Assembly: GCF_006459125.1 (NCBI RefSeq)
Contig: NZ_CP041070.1
Location: forward strand, 1,550,001-1,614,000
Reading direction: 5' to 3'
DNA length: 64,000 bases
DNA from: Halarcobacter anaerophilus
Lineage (GTDB): Bacteria > Campylobacterota > Campylobacteria > Campylobacterales > Arcobacteraceae
The translations under genes were made by a program, and so were the position numbers. Positions 3,386 to 46,578 of the stretch are shown here, one piece after another; position 1 is the first letter of the stretch; each line of letters opens with the position of its first letter. Below the pieces are notes generated by a model, which saw nothing but the letters and a program-made list of their open reading frames with translations, was not told the DNA's origin and did no database searches.

Positions 3386-4583
3386 AGGTTGGGATATTCC
3401 CAAAAAACGAAATAAAACTACTGGCGAACTTGAAGACGGTAATGTTATTTATGTTCTTGGAACAGTTGATGGTAAGTTCTACAGAAAATCAACTGGTAAA
3501 GAAGCAACAAAATTAAATATTGCATGGATAAAAAAGAATGCCAGAGAAGTTCTTTTAAAACTTATAAATAAACAAAACACTAAAGTAGAAAAAACTAGCT
3601 TAGAAGAATATGGTTTAAAGGTTATTGAAGCTACTGCAAGAGGTAGAAGTATTTCTACTCAAAAAGAGAAAAAAGGCTATTTCAATAATCACATATTGCC
3701 TTATTTTAAATCTAAAGGTTTTACATATATTGAAGATATTAAAACTACAGAAATAGAAATGTGGCAAAACCATATGTTAGATAATAAGTCTTCAAGCACT
3801 GCAAAAAAGTGCAAAGATACTTTTGCTCTTATTATGGATAAAGCTGCAGCAGATGATATAATTAATAAGAACTATGTAAAACTGGCTTACAGTTTTACTG
3901 TTACTACAGAAAAAAGAGTTCCATATACTCCAGGTGAAGTTACAACTCTCATAAAAGAGAGTGAAGGCTGGTTTAAAGTATTTTTATACTTGATATTTAG
4001 TACAGGAGTTAGAACTGGTGAAGCTCTTGGTCTTATGTGGGATGATATAGATTTCAACAATGGGTTTATTGATTTAAAGAGATCTATTACAAAAAGTAGA
4101 GTAACCACAAAAGAAGGTAATACTAGTACTGAAGATTTCATACAAAACGGTTATAAAATTGTAGAAAACAACAATACTAACAAAACTAAAAATCATACAA
4201 GACTTATACCACTTGATGATACCACAAAAAATATTTTAATGGAATATTATCAAGAAAGAACTCAAGATGAATGGATTTTTGTAAGTAAAAATAATACCTG
4301 CTTTAGTGATAGCAAAACAGTAAATAAATACTATTGGAAACCATTACTATTTAAAACAAAAATTGAAGATAAAGATTTATATACATCGAGACATACATAT
4401 GTAACCATTATGAAAAATAATGGTGCAGATGAAGCTTGGCTTAAATCTGTTGGCGGATGGACACAAAGTTCTAAAGTGCTAAATGATGTTTATTTTACTC
4501 ATGAAAGTAGTAAAAAAGATATCAAGTTAGCTAATAATTTTTTCCATATAGTAAATGAAAAGGAAGATAAAAAACCATGTTAA
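3375..4583 (+). CDS. int: Phage-type tyrosine integrase
   Basis: A 402-residue tyrosine recombinase that catalyses integration and excision of the prophage. It has an N-terminal arm-type DNA-binding region (about 1-65), a SAM-like core-binding domain (about 75-170) and a catalytic domain. Catalytic residues visible are Arg213 (TGVRTGEALG), Arg339-His340 (TSRHTY), the GGW block and nucleophile Tyr373 (DVYFTH). The first His of the usual HxxR box is replaced by Tyr, a tolerated variant in the family. The gene overlaps the excisionase-like gene and ends next to the tRNA-Met 3' end, which is therefore the likely attachment site. Confidence 0.93.
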   Translation: MRGKGWDIPKKRNKTTGELEDGNVIYVLGTVDGKFYRKSTGKEATKLNIAWIKKNAREVLLKLINKQNTKVEKTSLEEYGLKVIEATARGRSISTQKEKKGYFNNHILPYFKSKGFTYIEDIKTTEIEMWQNHMLDNKSSSTAKKCKDTFALIMDKAAADDIINKNYVKLAYSFTVTTEKRVPYTPGEVTTLIKESEGWFKVFLYLIFSTGVRTGEALGLMWDDIDFNNGFIDLKRSITKSRVTTKEGNTSTEDFIQNGYKIVENNNTNKTKNHTRLIPLDDTTKNILMEYYQERTQDEWIFVSKNNTCFSDSKTVNKYYWKPLLFKTKIEDKDLYTSRHTYVTIMKNNGADEAWLKSVGGWTQSSKVLNDVYFTHESSKKDIKLANNFFHIVNEKEDKKPC

Positions 4584-4650
4584 TGTTTGCCGAGTTTTTG
4601 CTGAGTAAGTTGTTTAGTTTATTTGTTAGAATAGTTATGATATCTAACCA

Positions 4651-4670
4651 ACCCTACGTTTTAGGGCTTT
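4651..4670 (+). terminator. Probable terminator of the integrase gene
   Basis: A short hairpin (CCCTA, loop, TAGGG) is followed by CTTTTT, 70 bases after the integrase stop and just before the 3' end of the convergent tRNA-Met. The stem is only five or six pairs, so it may be a weak terminator. Confidence 0.5.
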
Positions 4671-4675
4671 TTAAA

Positions 4676-4752
4676 TGGTGTCAAGAGAGAGACTTGAACT
4701 CTCGACCTCCGGCTTATGAGACCAGCGCTCTAGCCAGCTGAGCTACCTTGAC
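4676..4752 (-). tRNA. tRNA-Met (CAT), elongator type
   Basis: The - strand folds as a complete cloverleaf: acceptor GTCAAGG/TCTTGAC, D stem GCTC/GAGC, anticodon arm with loop CTCATAA, T arm GAGAG-TTCAAGT-CTCTC, discriminator A and an encoded CCA (4676-4678). CAT could also read as tRNA-Ile2 (lysidine), but the body looks like elongator Met. It lacks the initiator hallmark GGG/CCC of the fMet gene nearby. Its 3' end faces the integrase and is the probable attB of the prophage. Confidence 0.93.
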
Positions 4753-4770
4753 ATAAGATATCATATATTT

Positions 4771-4817
4771 GATAGTTGCTAAAGTAGGATTAAAACCTAC
4801 GACCTCAGGCTATAAGA
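4771..4817 (-). pseudogene. Decayed tRNA 3'-half, fMet-like
   Basis: On the - strand the sequence runs CTTATAG, then AGGTCGTAGGTTTTAATCC and the end GCAACTA. This matches the anticodon loop, T arm and GCAACCA end of the tRNA-fMet at 6319 over roughly 48 positions with about ten differences by hand alignment. The 5' half (acceptor and D arm) is absent and CCA has become CTA. A 7-bp hairpin (CGTCTGT/ACGGACG) lies just upstream. It is not a functional tRNA. It looks like an attachment-site scar or a partial duplication. Confidence 0.6.
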
Positions 4818-4954
4818 ATAACCGTCTGTCTTGCAACGGACGAAATTATAAGAATTTATCACTTAATATTTACTTAAAAATCTTACAAAAATGTAATTTT
4901 TTTTAATTTTAGAATATGTGCAGTTCTTTTAAGTTTTTTCTTGTTAAATATTTA

Positions 4955-5557
4955 TTATTTTATATTTTCAAAAAATAAATTAATTTCTTTTGTAAGCTCT
5001 TGAGATTTAACACTTAATCTTTTTGTCAAATTTTTCCACTCTTCATCTTTTTGATAATTTATCTTTATTCTATTGCCTAAAATATCATTTCTATACTCAT
5101 TTTGATCCTCTATGTATTGATGAAGTAATTTTGCTATTTTTGACGCTCCTATCATTTTTAGTTTTCTTTTAGCTATTGTTGTTTCATTCATAGCATGAAT
5201 ATAGTTTTTTTTATTTTCTAAAATCTTATTCTTTAATTCTGTACTTAATTCGTTGTAATACTTATTGGCTTTTTTTATTGAATAAATACTATTTTTAAAT
5301 AAATAAAATTCTTTTGAAAAATTATTTATATAAATTAGTGTTTCCTCCAATATTTCATACTTTTTTTCTAATCTAAATTTTTTATTTTCTCTTTCATATT
5401 GCTCTTTTATTTTTCTTAATTCATTTTTGTTATTTAAAATTGTTACTGTTAATGTTCCTATTACACCAATAAATGCTCCTAATCCAATTTTTACTATATC
5501 ATGTATAATTTCATATTGTTTTGCAGTTTCATTAAAAATTTCTGTAGTAGTTGTCAT
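4955..5557 (-). CDS. Unknown membrane-anchored coiled-coil protein
   Basis: This unrecognised protein is about 200 residues from the ATG at 5557, which has AAGGAC six bases upstream. The longer reading from 5608 would overlap the upstream gene. After a short polar start there is one membrane segment (about residues 22-42, Gly- and Ile-rich). A long Lys/Glu-rich helical region with coiled-coil character follows to the C-terminus. It resembles the generic one-TM plus helical plan of small phage-exclusion or envelope proteins, but no family can be named. It is the last gene of the three-gene island operon. Confidence 0.6.
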   Translation of the reverse strand: MTTTTEIFNETAKQYEIIHDIVKIGLGAFIGVIGTLTVTILNNKNELRKIKEQYERENKKFRLEKKYEILEETLIYINNFSKEFYLFKNSIYSIKKANKYYNELSTELKNKILENKKNYIHAMNETTIAKRKLKMIGASKIAKLLHQYIEDQNEYRNDILGNRIKINYQKDEEWKNLTKRLSVKSQELTKEINLFFENIK

Positions 5558-41484: not shown

Positions 41485-42564
41485 CTATTTCACTCGTCCT
41501 TTACTAAAATCAATAATATATTTAGCAATATCATCCAAATGAACAATATCTTTTACAGCACCTTTTTGAATAGCTTTTGCCGGCATACCGAAAACTACAC
41601 AACTCTCTTGATTTTGTGCAATAGTATAAGCTCCGTTGTCATGTAATTCTTTCATTGCTATACTTCCGTCATCTCCCATTCCCGTCATCATTACAGCCAT
41701 TGCACTGCTTCCTACAACATTATTTACTGATCTAAACAGCACATCGACACTTGGTCTGTGATGACTGACTTTGATTGTATCTAAAAGTTTTGTTTTATAA
41801 ACTCCTGCTGTACCTTTTTCTATTGTCAAGTGCATATTCCCCGGAGCTAAATATGCATGCCCGTTTTCTAGTACCATTCCATCTTTTGCTTCATGAACAA
41901 TTACCTCTGAATTGCTATTTAGTCTGTCTGCGAAGGATTTGGAAAAACCGTAAGGTATATGTTGAGTTATTAATATGGGAGGTAAATTTGCTGTTAAATC
42001 TTTAAAGACCTTTAAGAGTGATTCAACACCGCCTGTAGAGGACCCGATTGCAATAACTCTTTTACCCCCTAGTCTCGCTGGCATGGACTTTATGACTTCA
42101 TCAGGATGAACTTTTCTATCTAAATCTTTTGCTTTTGAACTTACTACTTTTTTAATGGGTTTTGGTTTTTTCAAAGTATATCGTTTTAGAAGAAAAGTTA
42201 GATTTAAAAGGTTATCTTTTATTCTTGAGGCAAAACTTATCATTGATTCGCCTCTATCGGGTTTATTTATAAACCCTACAGCTCCATCATCAAAGATATC
42301 ATTACCTCTAACACTCTCACCTGAAATTACAACGGCAGGCATTGGATGTAAACGCATTAAGTTTCTTAAAAATGTTACGCCGTTCATTTTCGGCATATTT
42401 ATATCTATAGTTACTAAATCCGGTTCATACTCTTTTATTTTTTCTCTTGCATCATAAGCATCTACGGCATCAGCTATTACTTCAAACTCTTCTATGCTGT
42501 TAATCATATCTTTTATAATTCTTCTCATAGAAGCGGAATCATCAATTATTAATACTGTATACAT
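41485..42564 (-). CDS. cheB: Chemotaxis response regulator protein-glutamate methylesterase CheB
   Basis: A 359-residue protein: REC domain (1-120; DD8-9, phospho-site Asp54, Lys101) and C-terminal methylesterase/deamidase. The catalytic triad is visible: Ser176 (GSSTGG), His202 (TQHIPYG) and Asp299 (GMGDDG). It demethylates chemoreceptors. Campylobacter CheB lacks the REC domain, so this full form is a difference. It is last of cheY-cheA-cheR-cheD-cheB. Confidence 0.96.
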   Translation of the reverse strand: MYTVLIIDDSASMRRIIKDMINSIEEFEVIADAVDAYDAREKIKEYEPDLVTIDINMPKMNGVTFLRNLMRLHPMPAVVISGESVRGNDIFDDGAVGFINKPDRGESMISFASRIKDNLLNLTFLLKRYTLKKPKPIKKVVSSKAKDLDRKVHPDEVIKSMPARLGGKRVIAIGSSTGGVESLLKVFKDLTANLPPILITQHIPYGFSKSFADRLNSNSEVIVHEAKDGMVLENGHAYLAPGNMHLTIEKGTAGVYKTKLLDTIKVSHHRPSVDVLFRSVNNVVGSSAMAVMMTGMGDDGSIAMKELHDNGAYTIAQNQESCVVFGMPAKAIQKGAVKDIVHLDDIAKYIIDFSKGRVK

Positions 42565-42572
42565 ACAAAACC

Positions 42573-43253
42573 TTAAAAAAGTTCTATTTCCATCTCTGGT
42601 TCAACTTCTACTTTATCAGCTCCAAATAGATCAACACCACCAACATACTCTTTGATAACAGGTGCTTTTGTAATCTCTGTTTGAAGAGCTTTTTCATCTT
42701 TAAGAATTTTATTATCAGTTTCAGATTTTTGAGTCACTTTTATAAAAGTTTGAAAATGATCTGCAAGAAGAATTAATCTTCCGTGTTCTCCTCTTGTATG
42801 TTCACTGATTAATTTAAATCCTTCAGATCTGCAAAAGTCTTTGGCAAATTCTACATTTCTATGCCCTATTGAATTAGCCATACTGATATTAAGCTGCATA
42901 ATATCAGCACCTCCGGAGATTTTTGCACTCATATTTTGTTTATGGCAGCCCATTTTATACATCTCATTGAGCATTGCTTCAACAGAATAAAGTCCATATT
43001 TCATATCTTCATTTGTACTGTTTGTAGTAGGTAATAAAAAGTGGTTCATTGCTTTAATCTTCTTTTGAGAATCATAAAACATTATAGCAACACAAGAACC
43101 AAGCAATGTTTTAAAGGCAACTTCGTCTGAATCTTTACCAACGGCAAACTCTCCACCTATTATTGTGTGAGTATTATAACCTTTTGTTCTTTGAGTGAAT
43201 CTTGAAACAGAAGCTTTTTCAATACTCCCATCTTTGTGCCCTAAAATAATCAA
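42573..43253 (-). CDS. cheD: Chemoreceptor glutamine deamidase CheD, with C-terminal tail
   Basis: This 226-residue protein has the CheD core: LGSCVAIMFYD (about 49-59, nucleophile Cys), MNHFLLP (about 67-73, His) and KISGGADIMQL. It deamidates receptor glutamines and in some bacteria works with CheC. The tail beyond about 175 is longer than usual and ends in acidic residues (EVEPEMEIELF), with no known motif. It overlaps cheR by four bases and precedes cheB by eight. Confidence 0.93.
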   Translation of the reverse strand: MIILGHKDGSIEKASVSRFTQRTKGYNTHTIIGGEFAVGKDSDEVAFKTLLGSCVAIMFYDSQKKIKAMNHFLLPTTNSTNEDMKYGLYSVEAMLNEMYKMGCHKQNMSAKISGGADIMQLNISMANSIGHRNVEFAKDFCRSEGFKLISEHTRGEHGRLILLADHFQTFIKVTQKSETDNKILKDEKALQTEITKAPVIKEYVGGVDLFGADKVEVEPEMEIELF

Positions 43254-44095
43254 TAAAAATCCTTTGTTTTTATGAAAATATTTTGCCCTATTCTATCTAC
43301 ACAACTAATTAAGTCTTGTGGATTTTCAGAATGACCTAGATATAAGGTACCTCCAATCTTAAGATGAGAAAAAAGTTTTTTTAAAATTTTGTTTTGATCC
43401 TCATTTGAAAAATATATAAGCACATTTCTACAAAAAATCACGTCAAAATAGTCTTTTTCATATGGGTAGGATTTATCATTTAAATTCATTACCTTAAATG
43501 TAACCATTTTTTGAAGTTCAGGTTTAACTTTTATTAAAATTTCTTCATTAGCCAAAGTTTTTTGAACTCTTCTTTTAAAATATTTTTGAGGTTTTATCCA
43601 AGAAGGGAACTCTTTTGAAGATTTTGAAAATCTATAAACTCCATTTGCAGCATATTGCAATACATTTGTATCAATATCTGTTGCTAAAATAGATGCTTTT
43701 ATATTTTTTCCTTGTTCTTGACTTGTTTCTAATACCGTCATAGCCATCGAATAAGGTTCTTCACCCGTTGATGATGCAGAACAGTACATTTTTATTTGTT
43801 GTCCTGATTTTGCAAACGATGGTAAAACCCTGTTTTTTAGATCGGCAAAATGAAAATCTTCCCGAAAAAAGTGTGTTTTATTTGTAGTAAATGAGTTAAT
43901 AAACTCTCTTGTGTAAGCGCCCTCTTCTATCTCATCTAAAAGGTCTTCTATATCACCTTGATATTTACTGTCTCTTTTTAATTTATGAAGTCTGTTTGAA
44001 ATCATTATATCTTTATTCTCTGAAAGAGAAATCCCTGTTAGAGAATAAAGAATATTTTTTACTCTGTTATGTAAATGCTTATTACTCTTTTGCAT
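43250..44095 (-). CDS. cheR: Chemotaxis protein methyltransferase CheR
   Basis: A 281-residue SAM methyltransferase of receptor glutamates. It has the N-terminal helical domain (about 1-75), the NKTHFFREDFHF block (about 75-86), the SAM-binding YCSASSTGEEPYSMAM (about 109-124) and DVIFCRNVLIYFS. No C-terminal tetratricopeptide part. It starts six bases after cheA ends and overlaps cheD. Confidence 0.95.
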   Translation of the reverse strand: MQKSNKHLHNRVKNILYSLTGISLSENKDIMISNRLHKLKRDSKYQGDIEDLLDEIEEGAYTREFINSFTTNKTHFFREDFHFADLKNRVLPSFAKSGQQIKMYCSASSTGEEPYSMAMTVLETSQEQGKNIKASILATDIDTNVLQYAANGVYRFSKSSKEFPSWIKPQKYFKRRVQKTLANEEILIKVKPELQKMVTFKVMNLNDKSYPYEKDYFDVIFCRNVLIYFSNEDQNKILKKLFSHLKIGGTLYLGHSENPQDLISCVDRIGQNIFIKTKDFY

Positions 44096-44101
44096 TTATC
44101 C

Positions 44102-46198
44102 TCACGAAGCTTTTTGCATCATATTATTCATATTTTTTTCTATCTTGATTTGAGCATTAATTATTCCCAATACATCAAGAATTAACCCAATGCTTCCATC
44201 TCCTCTAACTGTTGCAGCACCTATACCTTCTACACTTCTGAAATTTTTATCTAAAGGTTTTACAACAACTTGATGTTGATTTAAGAATTCATCGATTGAG
44301 ATTGCTACTTTTTGCGTTCCTGATTTAACAACAATTAACATTCCATCTTCTAAATTTACAAAAGTAGGTTCTACTCCAAATAATTGATGCAGTCTTACTA
44401 CAGGAATAAATTCTTCTCTTAACATCAATAAATCTTGTGAACCGTCACCGATTTTTTTAATCATATCAGGAGTCGGTTGTAAAGATTCAACAATTGAACT
44501 TAACGGTAAAATATATTTTTGATCTCCTACTGCAATATCCAATCCATCCAAAATAGCAAGAGTTAAAGGAAGCATAATAGTAATAATTGTTCCTTTACCA
44601 AGTTCTGTATCAAGTTTAATCGCTCCGCCTAGTTTTTGAATATTTGTTTTTACAACATCCATTCCTACACCACGACCTGAGATATCAGTAACTTCTTTTG
44701 CTGTTGAAACTCCTGCTCCAAATACTAACATTGCTTTTTCATTATCACTCATAGTATTATATTGATTTTCATCAATTTGACCTTGTTCTAAGGCTTTTTT
44801 GGCAACTGTTTCAGAATCAATACCTTTACCGTCATCTTCAATTGTAATAATCATTTGACCGTTTGCTTGTTCTGCTGAGATTGTAATAGCACCTACTTCC
44901 TCTTTCCCGCTAGCTTTTCTTACATCAGGGGTTTCTAAACCATGGTCTAAAGAGTTTCTGATAATATGCATTAAAGGATCGGTTAACCCCTCAATCATTG
45001 CTTTATCAATTTCAACACCGTCACCGTAATGTTTGAACTCTACTTTTTTATTAAGTTTTTTAGATATATCTCTTACAACTTTAGGGAATTTTGAGTATAT
45101 AGATTCCATAGGAACCATTCTTATACTCATGATTGAATCTTGCATATCTCTAATATGTCTTTCTAACAACTCCAATCTCTCTAAAACCGCATTTCTAGTT
45201 TTAGTCTCTTCAATTGAAGATGAAAATTGTGTAAGCATTGCATTTGTAATAACTAGATCACCGACATTATTCATCAATAAATCAATTTTATCCAAATTTA
45301 CTCTAATGTTATTTGACGCTGAAGATTTTTTACTGCTCTCTTTTGCCTCTCTTGAAGCTCTAGCAGGTCTTTTTGAAGATGCTTTTGCAGCAGCCGGAGC
45401 AGCTTTTACTTCAGTTTGCGGTTTCTCTTTTGGAGCTTCTGCTTTTTTCTCTTTTTGTAATTCTGCATTTTGATCGGCATTATTACCTTTTATTTCTGCT
45501 TCAGGAGTAATTCCAGGTGCATCATCAAAAAATCCAAAATCATCACTTCCATCATGTTCAATTACCGGAGTTTTTTCTGTTTTTATTTTTTTATCTAACT
45601 CTTCATCAAAGAATCCATAATTACTATTTTCACTCTCATTACCTATTTCATCATCTTTAAAGAAACCGTAAGAGACATTAAACTTACTCTCATCAATATC
45701 AGAATCATATAATCCTATATCACCGTTAGCATTGGATTCATGAATATTTTCTTCTAAATTTTCGCTCTGTTCTTCAGAAGAAGATGCAGGAGTTTCTCCA
45801 TTTATGTATGCTTTGATATCTGTTAATAAATCAGAAGTCATTTCTTCAAAAGTTTCTCTTGTAAGCTCTTCTGCAACTTCTAAATCAAGAATCTCTTTCA
45901 TAACATCCAAGGCATCAATTAAAGTTCCCGCCATTTCCGGAATAAATTCTATTTCATGATTTCTAAGTTTATCCATCATATTTTCGACGTTATGGGTAAA
46001 CTCAGCAAATAGTGCCAATTCAACAGAAGCTCCACTTCCTTTTAATGTATGAACATCTCTGAAAAGTTGTCCCATCTCTTCAGTAGTTAATGTTCCATTA
46101 GTTTCCGCTTCTAGAAGAACGTTATCAGCTGATTCAAAAAGTTCTTCAGCTTCCTCGAGAAACATCTCTCTATATTTAGAAATATCAAAACCAGACAT
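44102..46198 (-). CDS. cheA: Chemotaxis histidine kinase CheA with repeated GFF motif in the linker
   Basis: A 698-residue protein: Hpt/P1 domain with phospho-site His50 (DVHTLKGSG), an acidic linker (about 135-300), dimerisation P3 (about 300-370; NLDKIDLLMNNVGDLV), ATPase (IIRNSLDHGLE; GRGVGMDVV) and a CheW-like P5. The P2 response-regulator docking domain is not recognisable. In the linker, YGFF (177), YGFF (194) and FGFF (221) each lead into acidic residues, with a weaker IGLYDSD at 161. These may be short docking motifs replacing P2. cheY is 12 bases upstream. Confidence 0.95.
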   Translation of the reverse strand: MSGFDISKYREMFLEEAEELFESADNVLLEAETNGTLTTEEMGQLFRDVHTLKGSGASVELALFAEFTHNVENMMDKLRNHEIEFIPEMAGTLIDALDVMKEILDLEVAEELTRETFEEMTSDLLTDIKAYINGETPASSSEEQSENLEENIHESNANGDIGLYDSDIDESKFNVSYGFFKDDEIGNESENSNYGFFDEELDKKIKTEKTPVIEHDGSDDFGFFDDAPGITPEAEIKGNNADQNAELQKEKKAEAPKEKPQTEVKAAPAAAKASSKRPARASREAKESSKKSSASNNIRVNLDKIDLLMNNVGDLVITNAMLTQFSSSIEETKTRNAVLERLELLERHIRDMQDSIMSIRMVPMESIYSKFPKVVRDISKKLNKKVEFKHYGDGVEIDKAMIEGLTDPLMHIIRNSLDHGLETPDVRKASGKEEVGAITISAEQANGQMIITIEDDGKGIDSETVAKKALEQGQIDENQYNTMSDNEKAMLVFGAGVSTAKEVTDISGRGVGMDVVKTNIQKLGGAIKLDTELGKGTIITIMLPLTLAILDGLDIAVGDQKYILPLSSIVESLQPTPDMIKKIGDGSQDLLMLREEFIPVVRLHQLFGVEPTFVNLEDGMLIVVKSGTQKVAISIDEFLNQHQVVVKPLDKNFRSVEGIGAATVRGDGSIGLILDVLGIINAQIKIEKNMNNMMQKAS

Positions 46199-46209
46199 AT
46201 TTAAACCTT

Positions 46210-46578
46210 TTATCTACTTAATACTATATTTACTGCTTTTAAAAGTTGTTCCGGAACAAATGGTTTTACAATCCAACCGGTAGCTCCTGCAGCTTTTCCT
46301 TTTGCTTTCATCTCATCACTTCTTTCAGTAGTTAAAACTAAAATTGGTTTACTTGCGTATGTCGGGAGTTTTCTTAACTCTCCAATAAGTGCCAAGCCAT
46401 CCATATTAGGCATGTTAACATCTGTTATTATCAAATCAAATGTTGTAGCCTTAGCTTTTTCTAAGCCATCTATACCGTCAATAGCTTCTGTTACATCGTT
46501 ATAACCACCTTCATTTAGTGCATAATTCAACATATCTCTTAACATTGTCGAATCATCCACGATTAAAAGCTTAGCCAT
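46210..46578 (-). CDS. cheY: Chemotaxis response regulator CheY
   Basis: A 122-residue single-domain receiver: acidic pocket DD8-9, phospho-acceptor Asp53 (IITDVNMPN), Thr84 or 85 (VLTTERS) and the conserved Lys in IVKPF. It carries the signal from CheA to the flagellar switch. It heads the che cluster, 76 bases after pnp. The TGWIVKPF end and lack of a C-terminal output domain make the assignment secure. Confidence 0.95.
   Translation of the reverse strand: MAKLLIVDDSTMLRDMLNYALNEGGYNDVTEAIDGIDGLEKAKATTFDLIITDVNMPNMDGLALIGELRKLPTYASKPILVLTTERSDEMKAKGKAAGATGWIVKPFVPEQLLKAVNIVLSR

Follow-up and report, generated by a model that had tools for sequence, protein, structure and literature searches.

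The closest described system is the P2 domain of Escherichia coli CheA (PF09078), in a kinase that we take to be of the F7 class. P2 is one folded domain that lies between P1 and P3, and its probable role is to gather CheY and CheB near P1. Short peptides also serve in chemotaxis: the N-terminal peptide of FliM and the C-terminal peptide of CheZ bind CheY, with sequences that appear to differ from the GFF motif described below, and the C-terminal pentapeptide of receptors is a short aromatic motif for CheR and CheB, which concentrates the enzyme from a flexible tether. More than half of CheA proteins have been reported to lack P2, with an extended unstructured region running from the Hpt to the dimerisation domain (PMC10782961); in the available sections of that survey the inter-domain region is described only as unstructured, and the word "motif" has zero occurrences in its main text. 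For Arcobacter, cheYARDB has been reported as the F7 operon (PMC9321776), and the available sections of the A. butzleri genome paper give a CheA without a receiver domain and leave the linker unmentioned (PMC2147049). A search of the open-licence literature by title or abstract start returned no description of a GFF motif in CheA linkers.

The cheA gene studied here is part of a minus-strand cluster with the gene order cheY, cheA, cheR, cheD, cheB, identified from open reading frames and Pfam domains in the window (the whole 64,000-nucleotide stretch of DNA that was analysed; Table 1). This order agrees with the cheYARDB order reported for the F7 operon of Arcobacter, and Pfam finds all core domains of the F7 class (P1, P3, P4 and P5) in the window CheA. 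The CheA proteins of 17 named or described Arcobacteraceae contigs are 66–83% identical to it, which points to a host within that family. The host genome (3.02 Mb, a single contig) gave four CheW-domain matches, one of which is the window CheA; since the other three read as CheW, CheV and a sensor-CheW fusion, the window CheA is probably the sole CheA of the genome. On host-genome stretch L004 (positions 1–1956), a large sensor-like protein with a terminal CheW domain adjoins a gene read as radical-SAM.

Table 1. Features of the chemotaxis cluster, with positions in the window.
Feature	Position	Strand	Evidence or remarks
cheY (operonic), best candidate partner	46210..46578	-	domain scan; CheY identity in distant clusters
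cheA	44102..46198	-	698 aa; P1-linker-P3-P4-P5; neither P2 nor receiver detected
P1 Hpt domain, residues 9–99, His50 in HTLKG	45902..46174	-	Pfam; H50 invariant in 18 alignment rows
Acidic linker, residues 133–295, predicted disordered	45314..45802	-	composition, conservation, AlphaFold, profiles
Motif 1 IGLYD, residues 161–165, weakest copy	45704..45718	-	48% amino-acid identity, 43 orthologues
Motif 2 YGFFKDDE, residues 177–184	45647..45670	-	YGFF 84% identity; G178 and F180 invariant in 18 rows
Motif 3 YGFFDEEL, residues 194–201	45596..45619	-	YGFF 86% identity where present
Motif 4 FGFFDDAP, residues 221–228	45515..45538	-	FGFF 98% identity; FGFFD invariant in 18/18 rows
P3 dimerisation domain (H-kinase_dim), residues 296–359	45122..45313	-	Pfam
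P4 ATPase domain (HATPase_c), residues 406–546	44561..44983	-	Pfam
P5 CheW-like domain (CheW), residues 553–682	44153..44542	-	Pfam
cheR	43250..44095	-	domain scan
cheD, C-terminal tail conserved	42573..43253	-	domain scan and alignment
cheB, receiver and methylesterase domains	41485..42564	-	domain scan

Between P1 and P3, where E. coli CheA has its folded P2, the window CheA has several motifs of 5–8 residues in a linker that is predicted to be disordered (163 residues, with 38 D/E versus 21 K/R). The original prediction had described these repeats as evenly spread in an acidic linker that replaces P2. Its coordinates, reading frame and residue numbering are correct (open reading frame and translation), and the observation is confirmed, in a stronger form than was first claimed; the even spread holds approximately only, with motif starts at residues 161, 177, 194 and 221 and hence gaps of 16, 17 and 27 residues. 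An AlphaFold model of full-length CheA (17 sequences, shallow alignment) has a mean pLDDT of 51, with P5 at about 30 and the linker at 26–48, and says little because it is weak overall. A model of residues 1–300 (16 sequences, shallow alignment) predicts P1 well, with the linker at low confidence (pLDDT 35–59). Row L046, which contains runs of N, was left out of the first folding alignment, and L046 and L049 out of the second. Neither shallow model gives confident order or fold in the linker, as judged by pLDDT; both fit a disordered linker and would also be compatible with weak docking.

The strict pattern [FY]GFF occurs three times in the window linker, while composition-preserving shuffles of the linker gave one copy in 195 of 200,000 cases and two copies in none. 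By the loose pattern [FYIL]G[FLI][FY] there are four copies; 13 of 200,000 shuffles had two, and none had more. A DNA pattern for [FY]GFF[KDNE][DE] matches four times in the 3.02 Mb genome, three times within the window CheA and once in a membrane protein read as sulfatase-like. The same pattern read backwards matches three times genome-wide and, because this control lies so near the forward count, the evidence is the clustering of the motif rather than its genome-wide frequency. A looser DNA pattern gave five matches (backward control: two), two of them in CheA; the other three lie in the sulfatase-like protein already mentioned and in two proteins that read as a molybdopterin oxidoreductase and an ABC transporter ATPase. 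Viral contigs yielded a single pattern match and no relative. A chance origin of the motifs is ruled out by the shuffles, together with the conservation and codon pattern set out below; recent tandem duplication is unlikely, as the stretches between copies are unlike each other (judged by eye).

Conservation in orthologues had been set beforehand as a test on which the original prediction could fail, and the motif does prove conserved. All 43 family orthologues keep two to four motif copies in the linker (four copies in 34, three in five and two in four). Amino-acid identity across the 43 is 0.85 in P1, 0.88 in the core and 0.33 in the remaining linker, as against 0.48, 0.84, 0.86 and 0.98 for motifs 1 to 4, each taken over its four core residues. 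The synonymous share of codon changes is 77%, 74% and 94% for motifs 2, 3 and 4, and 33% for motif 1, compared with 72% for the core and 13% for the remaining linker. At the place of motif 1, a copy of the form [IFL]G[FL][FY][DE] is present in 21 of 24 alignment rows; motif 3 is gapped in L050, L051, L053 and L055 (18-row alignment). Over 191 instances from 50 CheA linkers, gathered with a search pattern in which the glycine was fixed and the choice of residues at the remaining three core positions was restricted, the register reads [FY]-G-F-[FY]-D-[DE]-[DE], often with an acidic residue at position -2. A conserved motif in a poorly conserved, predicted-disordered region is what characterizes a short linear motif array, and these comparisons show that the motif is under selection.

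Beyond the family, 397 genomes of the phylum and 41 genomes of relatives were surveyed; the matches listed include at least 12 CheA proteins at ≥50% identity, and each of these 12 was read. Five of them (L058–L062), from cheY-A-W-R-D-B clusters in two other families, carry 3, 4, 7, 3 and 3 copies by the stricter pattern, and 5, 5, 7, 5 and 5 by the looser one. L067 (the same gene as L029, on a longer stretch) has a single FGFFN. Six more (L063–L066, L068 and L069) carry GFx[LI]F in its place, in one to three copies such as GFELFDE and DGFMLFTPEMI. Neither repeat form was found in six F3-like kinases (L032–L034 and L075–L077; about 800–840 residues, with an assumed receiver domain) or in five f18 kinases (L070–L074). 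In a 58-row tree that included the window CheA and 10 of the 43 family orthologues, and in which the L120 row is incomplete, all 17 GFF and all six GFx[LI]F kinases of Campylobacterota fall into one 24-row clade (support 100/100). One or other form is carried by 23 of the 24 rows, and copy number has turned over among them. The exception is encoded on an A. cloacae plasmid, sits on a long branch and lacks P1 and linker; this protein, L107, was counted apart.

Several observations from this survey stand on their own. The L107 gene (positions 3992–5065 of its stretch) encodes a CheA-like protein with an ATPase region that appears eroded by eye, and lies near two annotated chemoreceptor genes; its product may be a structural component of the array. 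In L064 and L068, both GFx[LI]F kinases, two tandem Hpt-like domains stand ahead of the motif (by eye). The F3-like linkers contain M[ST]xxE[VI]ExEIERLL (regex), twice in L032 and once each in L033, L034, L075 and L076, while L077 has a diverged form, LSPEEADAVLEHLV, plus a second similar copy by eye. This F3-like motif presumably resembles the N-terminal CheY-binding helix of FliM.

No P2 (CheY-binding) or receiver domain is found in the window CheA by Pfam at E ≤ 1. Because Pfam, in a scan that included E. coli, B. glumae and the Comamonadaceae CheA L099, also misses P2 in seven other CheA proteins, profile tests were added, and these agree with the original prediction that P2 is missing. 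As a profile, the GFF linkers have no similarity to enteric P2 (hhalign probability 0.6% and 0.3%), and the window linker alone scores 0.3% and 1.3% against two P2 profiles; a hidden P2 is thus unsupported by profile comparison. Fifteen further plasmid CheA linkers, taken as one profile, match enteric P2 at 93–95%; singly, three of the 15 reach 90% and the others 0.3–75%. Linkers matched to a profile that they helped to build match by construction, and were not counted. The linker of Sphaerotilus L101 matches the P2-like profile at 88.6%, and those of L104, L114, L115 and L121 match neither P2 profile and have no motif. A P2 of another subfamily could slip past the profile test, as the clostridial L104 illustrates (0.3% and 1.5%).

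Outside the phylum, one sequence bears on the relation between P2 and the motif. The Comamonadaceae CheA L099 has one FGFFDD and is the sole motif bearer by the stricter regex among 24 plasmid-borne, linker-bearing CheA proteins; the loosest regex also matched six other plasmid linkers, in unlike strings such as LGLLD. L099 groups with the CheA proteins of E. coli, B. glumae and Cupriavidus (support 97/93, 58-row tree), none of which carries the GFF motif, and from this tree position L099 is probably of the F7 class. By Pfam, P2 is present in E. coli and B. glumae but absent from L099, and the two P2 profiles give probabilities of 0.5% and 0.2% for the L099 linker. The exchange of P2 for the motif rests on this one betaproteobacterial sequence. 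The survey of P2-less CheA proteins that the original prediction had proposed gave a divided answer: the motif is present in the GFF clade and in L099, and absent from L114, L115, L121, the six F3-like and the five f18 kinases. No linker with a recognised P2 carries it. Loss of P2 alone therefore does not require the motif. Two alphaproteobacterial CheA proteins, L118 and L106, have FGFxP- or GFxP-like stretches directly ahead of a P2-like domain.

Candidate partners were sought in 22 genomes: seven with multi-motif CheA, seven other clade members (six with GFx[LI]F and one with a single motif) and eight from outside the clade. A close CheY (69–83% identity) and a close CheB (53–68%) are present in all seven multi-motif genomes, and the multi-motif form is co-inherited with the CheY/CheB operon. 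In the other clade members the best CheY is at 49% and the best CheB at 41%; five of the seven have a more distant CheB (36–41%), while the CheB search found nothing in G030 and G031 at E ≤ 1e-22. In the genomes from outside the clade, identity is at most 52% for CheY and 53% for CheB, each over part of its length. In five distant multi-motif clusters the operonic CheY keeps 69–81% identity, as against 48–52% for CheA. Across 23 operonic CheY proteins, identity to the window CheY is 93% in beta4-alpha4-beta5-alpha5, 90% in beta1-alpha1 and 77–79% in the two middle parts; high conservation at alpha4-beta5-alpha5, like that around the active site, is normal for a CheY and does not identify a ligand. 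The draft genome G031 (270 contigs, 96% complete) has one FGFFN copy in a cluster with CheA and CheW, and no close CheY was found in it. CheD was not found at E ≤ 0.001 in the draft genomes G031, G030 and G155. As G031 keeps the motif and neither CheB nor CheD was found in it, either protein as the only partner is disfavoured. With G030 also bearing a form of the repeat (and G155, for CheD), CheD is not a ligand shared by all bearers of the two repeat forms, and CheB probably is not either. CheY-like receivers are the simplest remaining candidate, despite G031; co-inheritance and the analogy with P2 both point towards CheY.

That the repeats may be linear motifs, as originally predicted, agrees with their selection, the predicted disorder of the linker, the P2 position and copy numbers of 1–7; multivalent docking is the natural reading of these features, and is plausible. 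We lean slightly towards the linker being a multivalent array of short linear motifs that replaces P2 and most probably docks CheY-type receivers, as judged from sequence. Each [FY]GF[FY]-acidic motif would transiently hold a partner with a receiver domain; the operonic CheY is the most likely one, perhaps along with other CheY paralogues and the CheB receiver. Docking would raise the local concentration of the partner beside phospho-P1, and the array would thereby do the job of the folded P2 in E. coli CheA; that the motifs bind directly, that CheY is what they bind and that this affects the kinetics are all parts of the proposal. An analogy in form is the receptor pentapeptide, which differs in sitting on receptors and once per chain, where the GFF motifs sit in the CheA linker. 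A multivalent tether would make sense for a kinase that serves several receivers. Comamonas testosteroni CheA phosphorylates two CheY proteins, one of which, CheY1, loses phosphate quickly and may be a sink, and has a locus tag adjoining that of CheA, according to the available sections of PMC6391922. Arcobacter is reported to have one F7 operon and five CheY proteins in total, and FliM is argued to be bound by CheYz and not by the operonic CheY (PMC9321776).

The motifs could instead dock on the kinase's own domains (P1, P4 or P5) or on CheW, fixing P1 in an inhibited or a productive state. Their place in the tether between P1 and P3 suits this, as does G031, where one motif occurs with CheA and CheW and no close CheY, CheB or CheD was found; the A. 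cloacae plasmid protein, which lacks P1, linker and motif alike, is also allowed. Docking on the kinase core, which the original prediction had named beside CheY and CheB, is nevertheless fairly unlikely in our view, because copy number (1–7) and spacing vary, as better suits an intermolecular array, and neither AlphaFold model gives the linker confident order (pLDDT 26–48 and 35–59, from shallow alignments). A role in tethering a further chemotaxis protein to the array (CheR, CheD, CheB or a polar factor), much as the receptor pentapeptides do, would fit the presence of cheR, cheD and cheB beside cheA in all five outside multi-motif clusters and all 17 named family loci. We regard it as distinctly unlikely given that, among the repeat-bearing draft genomes, G031, G030 and G155 gave no CheD, and G031 and G030 no CheB, at the thresholds given above.

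Aromatic-glycine repeats in an acidic, predicted-disordered chain, with turnover in copy number, also recall stickers, through which CheA linkers would self-associate and cluster or stiffen the array with no specific ligand. The ordered register and near-invariant motif 4 (98%) are stricter than sticker models need, and make this very unlikely. Least credible of all is a degenerate P2 with remnants that resemble motifs: it would explain why the position equals that of P2, yet it faces a profile probability of 0.6% (0.3% and 1.3% for the window linker alone), the lack of a confident fold in AlphaFold and up to seven copies in one relative.

Docking of receivers by the motif array, if correct, could account for a single kinase serving several CheY proteins; it would also show that a folded domain and a motif array are interchangeable among related kinases. 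A selected, countable motif at the P2 position makes P2-less docking cheaply testable. A wider possibility, which we offer tentatively and with more doubt than confidence, is that many P2-less CheA proteins use class-specific linear-motif arrays instead of a folded domain for CheY docking, with [FY]GF[FY]DD for cheYA(W)RDB kinases, GFx[LI]F for the sister kinases and MSxEEVExEIERLL for F3-like kinases. Copy number would then tune how many regulators are held per kinase, and the extreme would be Arcobacter, which has several CheY proteins to one such kinase.

A further conserved short sequence was seen at the C-terminus of CheD (window positions 42573–43253), for which a literature search by title gave no fitting paper. 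The tail has the form [VIT]xLF, with LF invariant in a 24-row alignment, and ends in MEIELF in the 18 family rows. It somewhat resembles the GFx[LI]F repeat of the sister CheA proteins.
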